The notes under the pieces: model-generated
What the model was told of the DNA's origin: nothing
The model's database searches: none
Seen by the model: the letters and a program-made list of their open reading frames with translations, nothing else
Source: a bacterium
Lineage (GTDB): Bacteria; SM23-81; DAOVCL01
NCBI GenBank assembly: GCA_029932675.1
Contig: JAOZPP010000085.1
Coordinates: forward strand, 1 to 13,093
DNA length: 13,093 nt
Reading direction: 5' to 3'
In this document: positions 5,909 to 9,311 of the stretch, piece by piece
Layout of the letters: each line of letters begins with the position of its first letter
Position numbering within the stretch: position 1 is the first letter of the stretch
Translations under genes and position numbers: made by a program

Positions 5909-6169
5909 ATGACAGATGAGGCTTTAACCCAGATTAAAGGAGTAGGTGAGAAGACAGCAGTGAAGCTGCAGGCTGGAGGATTTGACACTATCGGGAAAGT
6001 GGCTTCAGCTAGCAAAGAAGATCTGTTGAAGATAGGACTTAACCAAGCTGAGGCTAAGGGGATCATCGCCTCGGCCAGAAGCCTTTCTGGAGTGGGAAAG
6101 AGGGAAGAGGCCAGAAGCCTCTCTGGGGGGGAAGAGAGGGTAGAAGGCAGTTTCTGGAGGTTTGGTTAG
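5909..6169 (+). CDS. Small helix-hairpin-helix protein
   Basis: An 86-residue protein, ATG preceded by the Shine-Dalgarno GAAGGAGGAG. Residues 5-22 hold a helix-hairpin-helix signature (LTQIKGVGEKTAVKL) and 34-56 a second helical unit (SKEDLLKIGLNQAEAKGIIASA). This matches the paired HhH folds of RuvA, RecA/Rad51-like N-termini and DUF4332 proteins, which bind the DNA or RNA backbone without sequence specificity. The typical small HhH protein stops soon after the second unit. Here a Gly/Ser/Glu/Arg-rich tail follows (57-86) with ARSLSG written twice. No enzymatic domain is present. A nucleic-acid-binding role is inferred from the motif alone, and the partner is unknown. Confidence 0.75.
   Translation: MTDEALTQIKGVGEKTAVKLQAGGFDTIGKVASASKEDLLKIGLNQAEAKGIIASARSLSGVGKREEARSLSGGEERVEGSFWRFG
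6073..6144 (+). repeat. Two tandem 36-bp units in the tail of the HhH gene
   Basis: Unit 1 (6073-6108) and unit 2 (6109-6144) both begin GGCCAGAAGCCT and agree at 30 of 36 positions by hand count (17 of the first 18). The period is 12 codons, so the duplication keeps the frame and repeats the peptide ARSLSG. It looks like a fairly recent in-frame slippage or duplication that lengthened the protein tail. Confidence 0.75.
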
Positions 6170-6248: not shown

Positions 6249-6344
6249 ATGGAAGAGGACTATAAAGATTTAGAAACCGACAAAAACCAGGGGAAATACA
6301 GAATAGTATTTCAGTGTGGTTTTTCCTTAGATGAGAAAGAGTAA
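6249..6344 (+). pseudogene. Probable remnant of a third copy of the 67-residue small-protein family
   Basis: A 31-codon ORF starts at ATG 6249 with a purine-rich Shine-Dalgarno-like stretch (AAGGAAGGGG) just upstream. Its C-terminal half reads KYRIVFQ near residues 16-22, matching EYRIVLQ and EYKVVLQ in the two intact downstream paralogues, with a preceding NQG where they have DTG or ETG. The conserved N-terminal half (RFxMHDF ... IEKSPTSP) and the TKW ending are absent. This suggests an internal deletion plus drift in an old first copy of a three-gene array. It could instead be a short expressed variant, or the similarity over about 15 residues could be chance. Confidence 0.45.
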
Positions 6345-6429: not shown

Positions 6430-6633
6430 ATGGCCAGATTTAATATGCATGATTTCGACAGCATAGAGAAGTCGCCCACTTCTCCATATTCTCTGCGGAA
6501 CAAGATTAACTCCATGCTCAACTGCTCCACTTATGTGCGCGCCAAGGTTGATTCTGTAAATCCGGATACCGGAGAGTACAGGATCGTCCTCCAGGGCACC
6601 CTGGAGAAGGAAGATACCAAGTGGGAGGAGTAG
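6430..6633 (+). CDS. Small protein of unknown family, paralogue 1
   Basis: A 67-residue protein I do not recognise. The ATG follows a near-perfect anti-16S match (AGGAAGGAGGTGA, 6412-6424), which suggests high translation. It aligns without gaps to the 67-residue product of the next gene, with 41 identical positions by hand count. Conserved blocks are RFxMHDF (3-9), IEKSPTSP (12-19), KI..M..CST.V (25-36) with a single shared Cys at 32, TGEY..VLQGTLE (47-59) and EDTKW (61-65). There is no signal peptide or membrane segment. The second half looks beta-rich. Tandem duplication with conserved sequence and start signals indicates a real gene. Abundant structural, nucleic-acid-associated or peptide-precursor roles are all possible and none is shown. 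Confidence 0.8.
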   Translation: MARFNMHDFDSIEKSPTSPYSLRNKINSMLNCSTYVRAKVDSVNPDTGEYRIVLQGTLEKEDTKWEE

Positions 6634-6704: not shown

Positions 6705-6908
6705 ATGCCCCGTTTTCAGATGCACGATTTCAAGCTTATCGAAAAGTCACCAACTTCTCCCAGCACCCTAACTCATAAAATCGGTCAGATGATAGAGTGT
6801 TCGACCAATGTTAAATGTTGGGCAGAGTCCTACAACAAGGAGACCGGTGAATATAAAGTTGTCCTGCAGGGGACTTTGGAGACGGAAGACACGAAGTGGG
6901 ACTGGTGA
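6705..6908 (+). CDS. Small protein of unknown family, paralogue 2
   Basis: A 67-residue tandem paralogue of the preceding gene, 61% identical and the same length. The ATG at 6705 is chosen over the in-frame GTG at 6696 for two reasons: that GTG lies inside the Shine-Dalgarno AGGAAGGAGGTGA (6687-6699), and the ATG gives exactly the paralogue's length. It shares RFxMHDF, IEKSPTSP, CST, TGEY and QGTLE.EDTKW. It has an extra Cys-Trp pair (38-39) and ends in DW rather than EE. It lies 71 nt after the first copy and just before a strong terminator, so the two are probably co-transcribed. The function is unknown. Confidence 0.8.
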   Translation: MPRFQMHDFKLIEKSPTSPSTLTHKIGQMIECSTNVKCWAESYNKETGEYKVVLQGTLETEDTKWDW

Positions 6909-6938: not shown

Positions 6939-6968
6939 GGGGGTCTCTTTTGAGGCCCCCTTTTGTTT
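6939..6968 (+). terminator. Strong intrinsic terminator after the small-protein pair
   Basis: A 9-bp stem, GGGGGTCTC (6939-6947) with GAGGCCCCC (6952-6960) including one T-G pair, closes a TTTT loop and is followed by TTTTGTTT. It starts 30 bases past the stop of the second small gene. It separates that unit from the sigma-54 controlled gene downstream. Confidence 0.88.
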
Positions 6969-6980
6969 AGGGTAACAATC

Positions 6981-6998
6981 TGTGCAAAATCTTGCACA
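6981..6998. promoter_or_regulatory. 18-bp dyad, candidate upstream activator site
   Basis: Perfect 7-bp arms TGTGCAA (6981-6987) and TTGCACA (6992-6998) flank AATC. The centre is about 135 bp upstream of the sigma-54 core promoter. This is the usual distance and symmetry for a site bound by a dimer of a bacterial enhancer-binding protein such as an NtrC-family activator. It does not look like a terminator, since the arms are not GC-rich and no T-tract follows. Which protein binds is unknown. Confidence 0.5.
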
Positions 6999-7123: not shown

Positions 7124-7139
7124 TGGCACAAACTTTGCG
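7124..7139 (+). promoter_or_regulatory. Sigma-54 (RpoN) -24/-12 promoter
   Basis: TGGCAC (7124-7129), a 5-base spacer, then TTGCG (7135-7139), preceded by T. This matches the RpoN consensus YTGGCAC-N5-TTGCW in every position except the last. The invariant GG (-25/-24) and GC (-13/-12) dinucleotides have the correct 10-bp separation. Transcription would start near 7150, about 25 nt before the ATG at 7175, leaving room for the Shine-Dalgarno GGAGGA (7160-7165). The position directly before a gene makes a chance match less likely. Confidence 0.75.
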
Positions 7140-7174
7140 GCTTTAATGGGATAGGGAATGGAGGACAAAGAGAG

Positions 7175-7798
7175 ATGATGAAAATATTGGAGACAAAATG
7201 GGGGAGATTCCCCCAGGTAGATCACTTAAACCCCAAGTTTATTCCCCAATCCCCCAGGTTAAAGGCCACCTTAGAGATTGACCCTAACGGTTTAGGGGAA
7301 AGGAGGCTCGAGGGCCACATTGAGGAGCTCGCCGAGCTTTTTCCCAGCTTCACCAAACACCGTTGTGAGAATGAACATGGTTTCTCCACGTCCTTTCGCC
7401 CCAAACCTGGGTTGAAAAAAGTTGATTTAGCAACTGATGTAGCCCATCTCATTGAGCACATGGTTATTGACCTCCAGTGTTCATTAGGCCAGATGAGATC
7501 TTGTAGTGGTATTACCTGTGCCTATCGGAAGCCGGAGAATCGTTATGATCTCTTCGTGGAATGTGCAGATCCCAAGGTAGGGGTTTTTGCCCTTAGGTTT
7601 GCCAGTGAGGTGGTGGAAGAGGTCCTCAAAGAGGGTAAGTTCAGTCCTAAATACAAGAAACTTCTGCAATTAGCCAAGTTCATTCAAAGGAATCCTCAAA
7701 TTTCCAATAATCCACAGAGCTTATCCTCCGCCTTAGGATGGAGTAAGGGGGCCGTTGAGTCCCATCTTAAAGAACTGATCCGTATGGGATATCTTTGA
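7175..7798 (+). CDS. Free-standing cyanophycin-synthetase N-terminal-like domain fused to a winged helix
   Basis: A 207-residue protein from ATG 7175. An upstream in-frame TTG (7118) is rejected because it precedes the sigma-54 promoter elements and would lie outside the transcript. Residues 25-152 resemble the N-terminal domain of cyanophycin synthetase CphA: 'LFPSFTKHRC' (55-64) parallels its LPSLIEHRC, and 'HLIEHMVIDLQ' (91-101) parallels its HVLEHVALELQ, followed by a Tyr/Phe-Val strand and a helix. The ATP-grasp and Mur-ligase domains that make cyanophycin are absent, so it is not a synthetase. Residues 158-207 look like a winged helix-turn-helix (QSLSSALGWSKGAVESHLKELIRMGYL in part). 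Sigma-54 control hints at nitrogen, amino-acid or stress physiology; that is inference. It could be a regulator sensing a peptide or amino acid, or a small binding protein. Confidence 0.72.
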   Translation: MMKILETKWGRFPQVDHLNPKFIPQSPRLKATLEIDPNGLGERRLEGHIEELAELFPSFTKHRCENEHGFSTSFRPKPGLKKVDLATDVAHLIEHMVIDLQCSLGQMRSCSGITCAYRKPENRYDLFVECADPKVGVFALRFASEVVEEVLKEGKFSPKYKKLLQLAKFIQRNPQISNNPQSLSSALGWSKGAVESHLKELIRMGYL

Positions 7799-7848: not shown

Positions 7849-8838
7849 TTAAGGCCCACCATAAAGCTTTGTTAGCTCATCTTGAGGAAAGAGCGGAAGA
7901 TCCCCTCCTCCCTTCCACTTTACCCCCTCTTCTCCCTCTACCCTTCCAATGACTGTAGAGGGGATACCCTTGGATTTCAGTGCCGCCATTACCTGAGGGG
8001 AATCCTTTGGAGAGAGGGAGATGAGGAGGGAACCGGAGGCAATTATCCCCAAGGGGTCAAGCCCAAACTCTCGACAGAGAACCTCGGTTTCTGGGAGAAT
8101 GGGCAGGGATTCCCTCTCCACCCTTATCCCTACCTGAGAGGCCCAAGAGAGCTCCCAAAGCGCGGTGGCTATCCCCCCCTCCGTAGGGTCATGCATAGCG
8201 TGAACGCGGGCGACATTTACCACTATTCTGGCCTCTTCCACTATGCTTATTCCAGGTTCTCTTGTGAAATTTTCACACCTCCGGACAAATTCCTCCCCAT
8301 ACCTGTTCTTGAGCTCACCCCGCCTTTCCTTAGCGATTATGGCCGTGGCCTCAATGGCTATCCCCTTGGTGAGGAGGAGAAGATCTCCGGCTTGGGCTCC
8401 CGCGGAGGTAACCAGTTTATCCCTCTCCACCTCTCCCAACATTTGACCTATAAGGATAGGTCTTTCTATGCCGTCGGTTATTTCAGTATGCCCCCCACAG
8501 AGCACAACTCCCAGTCTCTGGCCTGCCTTATTTATCTGGGAGAATATCTCCTCGGCCATCCTTGAGGCCCCCTTGACCTGGGGCAGAAGCAGGGTAGCCA
8601 AAAACCACCTCGGCTCTGCCCCCATAACGGCTACATCATTTGCATTTACCTCCACCCCATAAGTCCCTAATTCCTTAGTGGTTAAGGTGACCGGATCGGT
8701 AGCTACCACCAAGAACCGATCACTCATATCGATCACTGCCGCATCCTCTCCGATTTGAGGGCCCACCACCAACCGAGGGTGAGGAGGGCAGAACTTCTTC
8801 AGGAACCTGGCCAGGACCTTAGGATCGAGTTTCCCCAA
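7849..8838 (-). CDS. AIR synthase-related protein (HypE/ThiL/PurM-like)
   Basis: A 329-residue protein if it starts at TTG 8838 (MGKLDPKVLARFL), 14 nt after the DUF488 stop and with AGGAAAAAGG upstream. The frame is open to ATG 8979, but the added residues are an out-of-frame copy of DUF488 coding sequence. Family features: GPQIGEDAAVID (26-37, nucleotide-binding N-terminal strand), NDVAVMGAEP (67-76), GGHTEITDGI (115-124), MHDPTEGGIATALWEL (215-230) and a C-terminal AIRS_C-like domain. Such proteins bind ATP as dimers and phosphorylate or dehydrate carboxyl, amide or thiamine-phosphate groups. HypE proper needs a C-terminal Cys for cyanide transfer; here the end is LYGGP, and no hydrogenase genes are nearby. 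The substrate is unknown. It is the third gene of the polX-DUF488 operon. Confidence 0.85.
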   Translation of the reverse strand: MGKLDPKVLARFLKKFCPPHPRLVVGPQIGEDAAVIDMSDRFLVVATDPVTLTTKELGTYGVEVNANDVAVMGAEPRWFLATLLLPQVKGASRMAEEIFSQINKAGQRLGVVLCGGHTEITDGIERPILIGQMLGEVERDKLVTSAGAQAGDLLLLTKGIAIEATAIIAKERRGELKNRYGEEFVRRCENFTREPGISIVEEARIVVNVARVHAMHDPTEGGIATALWELSWASQVGIRVERESLPILPETEVLCREFGLDPLGIIASGSLLISLSPKDSPQVMAALKSKGIPSTVIGRVEGEEGVKWKGGGDLPLFPQDELTKLYGGP

Positions 8839-8852
8839 ATTTGGCCTTTTTC

Positions 8853-9311
8853 CTAAATGCTCAGGGAGATCTGTTTTTCTTCTCGCCTTTGGGGGATCCA
8901 AACTTTTCCCCTTTCGATGATGTGCACCACTTCCCAACCTTTCTCCTCCAGCCTCATGGAGATGAACTTCCGATGACATCTCCAGGGAAACCTTTCCGCA
9001 CAGAGGATTGCCGTGGGCTGCCTGGAGGCAAAGGCTTTTAATCCCTCCAATCCCTCCTTAAACTCCTTGGTTTCCGTATAGGCCTGATATCCGCCGGTTC
9101 TGTATCCACCCAAGCTCTCACCTAAGTAGAGATATCCGAGACCCTCCTTTTGGCAAAGCTGGGCCAGTTTCTCCCTCTTAAAGTGCTCATATCTGGATTG
9201 GGGGAACCTGCGCACATCGGCCAAAGCCCTTACTCCAAAGGAGCTCGCCAATTCCTTGAACTCCTTCCAAGTCCGATTGCTCGTCCCGATTGTATAGACC
9301 TTCTTACCCAC
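8853..9311 (-). CDS. DUF488 family protein
   Basis: A 152-residue protein starting at GTG 9311; the start overlaps the polX stop by 8 nt, implying translational coupling. DUF488 hallmarks are YTIGTS (6-11), DVRRFPQSR (32-40, the usual DVR.xPxSR), LGESLGG (63-69) and CAERFPWRCHR (104-114, the usual C.E.....CHR). The full family length is present. Its molecular function is not established; the conserved Arg, Cys and His residues suggest an enzyme or nucleic-acid-related role. The gap of 14 nt to the next gene and overlap with the previous one show an operon. Confidence 0.9.
   Translation of the reverse strand: MGKKVYTIGTSNRTWKEFKELASSFGVRALADVRRFPQSRYEHFKREKLAQLCQKEGLGYLYLGESLGGYRTGGYQAYTETKEFKEGLEGLKAFASRQPTAILCAERFPWRCHRKFISMRLEEKGWEVVHIIERGKVWIPQRREEKQISLSI

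Follow-up and report, generated by a model that had tools for sequence, protein, structure and literature searches.

Metallopeptidases of the ImmA/IrrE type, which carry the zinc motif HExxH, are linked to a helix-turn-helix regulator either in one protein or in one locus. The N-domain of the cyanophycin synthetase CphA1 was reported in 2022 to contain a cryptic, zinc metallopeptidase-like endopeptidase site, as seen by mutagenesis and cryo-EM of SuCphA1 (PMC9262961). In this site the zinc ligands are H79, H83 and C59, E82 is the base and H57 has a supporting function, and the domain was described as a distant relative of M16 peptidases, the inverzincins (PMC9262961). Here we describe a gene encoding such a domain outside of any synthetase, found in a bacterial DNA stretch of 13,093 nucleotides (the window). 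Our main reading, to which we assign a probability of roughly 0.55, is that the product is a free-standing, zinc-dependent, inverzincin-like endopeptidase of the CphA-N type with an attached winged helix, forming a module with tandemly encoded, dedicated partner proteins of about 67 amino acids, perhaps its substrates.

The gene (7175..7798, forward strand) begins with an ATG at 7175, directly preceded by a GGAGG ribosome-binding site, and encodes a CphA-N-domain metallopeptidase-like protein of 207 amino acids with a C-terminal winged helix. Residues 42-151 match PF18921 (E 6.4e-11, 42.7 bits versus a gathering score of 27) and residues 169-207 match HTH_24 (E 1.4e-5, 25 bits versus a gathering score of 21.9); the PF18921 profile also matched all seven members of homologue alignment A3 at E 0.5 or better. 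An AlphaFold model was obtained from an alignment of seven homologues (pLDDT 82, pTM 0.83, with low confidence at residues 63-82). Over residues 2-174 its fold matches are CphA1 N-domains (7txv, Z 14.1, 149 residues, rmsd 3.2), and over residues 157-207 winged helices (4kmf, Z 8.5, rmsd 1.0 over 49), with the C-terminal 50 residues fitting winged helices of the HTH_24, Z-alpha and DeoR type at rmsd 1.0-2.4 Å. The ATP-grasp and Mur-ligase-like domains are absent from the open reading frame, which ends after the winged helix. A sequence-only reading of the window had proposed just this combination, a CphA N-domain joined to a winged helix and lacking the ATP-grasp and ligase parts, and the profile searches, the predicted structure and the fold search all agree with it.

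Conclusions concerning catalytic residues are drawn from an alignment with genome-derived CphA rows, eight CphA N-domains in total. Residues H57, C59, H79, E82 and H83 of SuCphA1 correspond to H62, C64, H91, E94 and H95 of the 207-residue protein, so all five are kept, and D99 stands where SuCphA1 has the acidic E87. No variation occurs at the five catalytic positions among the 24 intact family members, the eight CphA N-domains and a stand-alone protein of another type from genome G018. The surroundings are less constant. The loop around C64 is altered in comparison to the CphA N-domains, and 26 residues separate C64 from H91 versus 19 in CphA1, so with 7 extra residues the protein departs from the exact Cx19HxxEH spacing of the CphA1 endopeptidase. 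Such changes would suit a catalytically dead domain serving solely as a scaffold that binds the neighbouring small proteins. We regard this as unlikely, since all five catalytic positions stay the same across 24 diverse members, which are about 30-40% identical to the window protein.

The pattern of conservation along the protein points in the same direction as the catalytic residues. The best conserved segment of the family is the catalytic helix with its sheet (58% mean pairwise identity), while the winged helix is the lowest (23%); Pfam matches to the latter are few among other family members, and two of them (from G504 and G506) have no winged helix at all and keep the catalytic set. As the catalytic residues are invariant and the winged helix is both the least conserved part and lost in two proteins, an enzyme is, judging from these alignments, better supported than a sensor. 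The proposal of the sequence-only reading that the CphA N-domain acts as a sensor in a regulator is thus disfavoured.

If the protein is an enzyme, cyanophycin is one conceivable substrate, and a stand-alone endo-cyanophycinase or a primer-making accessory of cyanophycin metabolism would have the fold and catalytic residues of the cyanophycin-cleaving N-domain, as observed here. We consider this very improbable. The window gene is the sole PF18921 match in its genome, no second one being found there, which means that this genome has no CphA; the residue R70, a cyanophycin contact of SuCphA1 that every aligned CphA row retains, is not conserved in the family of the window protein; and the linked small proteins show no sign of an Asp-Arg polymer. 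With CphA missing and R70 lost, a cyanophycin role is unlikely, and an enzyme acting on some other substrate is the simplest reading that the sequences allow.

A candidate for this substrate lies immediately 5' of the peptidase gene, in a pair of genes which the sequence-only reading had passed over and which came out of clustering of neighbouring frames. Both are on the forward strand and encode tandem paralogues of 67 amino acids, copy 1 at 6430..6633 (MARFNMHDFDSIEKSPTSP...NPDTGEYRIVLQGTLEKEDTKWEE) and copy 2 at 6705..6908 (MPRFQMHDFKLIEKSPTSP...NKETGEYKVVLQGTLETEDTKWDW), that belong to a new family with the core ExxPxSPxxL...S...NPxTGEYRxVLxGTLD. A possible remnant of a third such gene (6249..6344, forward strand, start approximate, about 32 amino acids, ...NQGKYRIVFQCGFSLDEKE) gave a weak profile match (E 0.6). 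The genes of this family code for protein, purifying selection acts on them (dN/dS 0.03-0.34), and in many genomes two paralogue types are present. No match above the cut-off was obtained in Pfam, NCBIfam, PADLOC or PHROGs. For one copy DUF4458 appeared at E 0.036, below the cut-off, and a match of the family profile to the designed protein 7pvp covered 14 residues, with no stretch passing alone, and was put down to chance. A model made without an alignment (pLDDT 64) yielded no fold match. Farther 5', at 5909-6169 on the forward strand, there is an 86-residue helix-hairpin-helix protein (HHH_5), and on the other side of the peptidase gene, at 7849-8979 on the reverse strand, an AIR-synthase-like protein that falls between the HypE, SelD and ThiL models and under every curated cut-off.

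Between the small genes and the peptidase gene a hairpin resembling an intrinsic terminator is located on the forward strand (6939..6968; the stem-loop is also given as 6939-6960), so in the window the peptidase gene is probably transcribed separately from the small genes.

Five relatives of the peptidase turned up in a scan of named genomes; four of them belong to Zixibacteria and the fifth to an unclassified bacterium. A profile search through 132 genomes from the phylum to which G160 belongs, which we infer to be Zixibacteria, found the peptidase family once each in 27 of them, with homologues about 32-41% identical to the window protein. The family was not found in a genome of the same genus as that of the window nor in two others of its phylum. 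A tree groups the window protein with those of Zixibacteria, at no well-defined position, and horizontal transfer of the gene is possible. Apart from a single true CphA, carried by a plasmid, no relative of the peptidase or of the small proteins occurred in viral contigs, phages or plasmids. A second kind of stand-alone CphA-N protein, about 190-200 amino acids long and of another lineage, is encoded in G018, G165 and G304 (loci L004, L016 and L017); it keeps HxC and HLLEH and has no winged helix, and no small proteins were found in these three genomes.

The two families also occur together outside the window. Of the 132 Zixibacteria genomes, the peptidase family is present in 27 and the small family in 21, and 19 contain the two together. 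The small family thus accompanies the peptidase in 19 of 27 genomes and occurs in 2 of the 105 that lack it (Fisher p 1e-14, a value that overstates the evidence as genomes of one phylum share ancestry). The genes of both families lie within about 2 kb of each other in 18 of the 19 genomes, as they do in the window. In Zixibacteria the two to four small genes come downstream of the peptidase gene and share its strand, mostly 0.7-1.7 kb from the peptidase start. Among 386 broadly sampled genomes, the small family was detected solely in the genome of the window and in G160, the same two that have an intact peptidase of this type; in a second sample of 385 genomes, largely overlapping the first, it was detected in G160 alone. 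Beyond lineage synteny, as exemplified by a RarA-type AAA ATPase gene, no conserved third partner was found. Two observations count against the module: in G393 the small and peptidase genes are about 440 kb apart, and G483-G486, with an intact peptidase, have no small gene, not even a weak match nearby. The small family occurs in two genomes without the peptidase. In one of them, G512, the contig ends at a fragment of the small family, and the main locus may therefore be missing from the assembled sequence.

Four truncated homologues (from G388, G299, G386 and G387; L105-L108) allow the question of which part of the peptidase matters to the small proteins to be addressed. In all four the N-terminal part with the zinc cysteine (H-x-C) is gone and the C-terminal half remains; HxxEH has disappeared as well from three of them, G388 retaining HLLEH. 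Small-protein genes were not found in these genomes, even weakly nearby. Conversely, G504 and G506, whose proteins have no winged helix, possess three or four small genes. Taken with the conservation pattern, this links the small proteins to the catalytic centre rather than to the winged helix. Purifying selection still acts on the frames of the truncated homologues (dN/dS about 0.2), which again counts against the module and suggests that the C-terminal half may have a role of its own and may act alone.

The same selected C-terminal halves bring up another interpretation, namely that of a one-component transcription regulator. Its CphA-type domain would be a binding site for a peptide or an amino-acid polymer, or would be switched on by cleavage, as happens with metallopeptidase-linked repressors, and its winged helix would act on transcription of the small-protein genes or of other genes. 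The winged helix is backed by both HTH_24 and structure, and the intergenic region contains a dyad, TGTGCAA-N4-TTGCACA (6981..6998, forward strand, TGTGCAAAATCTTGCACA), a weak and solitary candidate operator or activator site about 125 bp 5' of the sigma-54 element described below. Against a regulator stand the invariant catalytic centre, the low conservation of the winged helix with its loss in two members, and the lack of a shared dyad upstream of the homologues. The dyad did not occur around the other sigma-54 sites that were fetched. We therefore consider the regulator possible, though rather unlikely.

A sigma-54 -24/-12 element, TGGCAC-N5-TTGC (TGGCACAAACTTTGC), occupies positions 7124..7138 of the forward strand and ends 36 bases before the ATG, as the sequence-only reading had pointed out. 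It is a perfect consensus and the sole zero-mismatch match within the window. The 3.03-Mb genome contains 40 sites of TGGCAYN5TTGC compared to 4 of the reversed pattern, from which it follows that about nine in ten of them are above chance and that chance alone is very unlikely to put such a site within 100 bp of a given start. The genome also has rpoN and 30 matches to the AAA+ domain of sigma-54 activators, about 25 of them full-length and the weakest probably other ATPases. The sequence-only reading had named conservation before orthologues as a check, and its outcome is negative: none of the 27 upstream regions of Zixibacteria homologues reached the score of the window or clearly exceeded reversed-sequence controls, although rpoN is present in 26 of the 27 genomes. 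The element is thus a local feature of the window, whose genome is the one in which we infer that sigma-54 controls the peptidase gene.

The other sigma-54 sites of this genome, in the view given by the fetched loci and with gene names judged by eye from the sequences, precede flagellar, pilin, Hsp20 and exopolysaccharide or polysaccharide-export-type genes as well as genes beside activators. Since sigma-54 is so widely used here, the element says little about nitrogen, and the suggestion that its rarity points to nitrogen or amino-acid signalling does not hold. Four loci of the same genome (L029, L031, L040 and L048) are repeated cassettes composed of an activator gene (about 950 amino acids), TGGCAYN5TTGC and short Lys-rich frames ending in KKKGVWQ(R/K)I, which resemble a sigma-54-controlled family of small peptides not described before.

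In the endopeptidase module that we favour, zinc would be held by C64, H91 and H95, with E94 as general base, and the enzyme would cut a peptide bond, either of the small proteins or of something that they carry. The winged helix might provide attachment to DNA or a contact with protein, and in the genome of the window the gene would additionally be under sigma-54. The altered cysteine spacing and the low model confidence around C64 weigh against this reading, as do the exceptions among genomes given above. A more far-reaching, tentative version is a new intracellular processing system, in which a C-H-H zinc endopeptidase, attached to DNA by its winged helix, would mature or destroy the ~67-residue proteins, the cut products being a signal or effector.

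If the main reading is true, the CphA N-domain, beyond its hidden function inside the synthetase, also works as an enzyme alone. The small-protein partner is undescribed, and the module suggests a small, previously unseen pairing of enzyme and partner, with two kinds of small protein to which an enzyme-substrate hypothesis can be applied. The joint loss of the zinc cysteine and of the partners in the truncated homologues amounts to a natural experiment pointing to the purpose of the active site.

Compared with known systems, the window protein shares HxxEH with M16 peptidases, is much smaller than these, and its third zinc ligand is expected to be a Cys on the upstream side instead of a Glu, Asp or His downstream. 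Its winged helix resembles domains of the HTH_24, Z-alpha and DeoR type and is poorly conserved among family members, two of which lack it. The ImmA/IrrE-type proteins, useful here as a lead, differ in zinc motif and fold and are not known to have small partners of this family. The closest system is the CphA1 N-domain (PF18921; SuCphA1, PDB 7lg5 and 7txv), with which the window protein has in common the fold over residues 2-174, H-x-C with HxxEH and the adjacent acidic residue. It departs from CphA1 in its longer Cys-HxxEH spacing (26 versus 19), in the loss of R70 and in being free-standing, without ATP-grasp and Mur-ligase domains, with a winged helix fused to it and tandem small genes adjoining.
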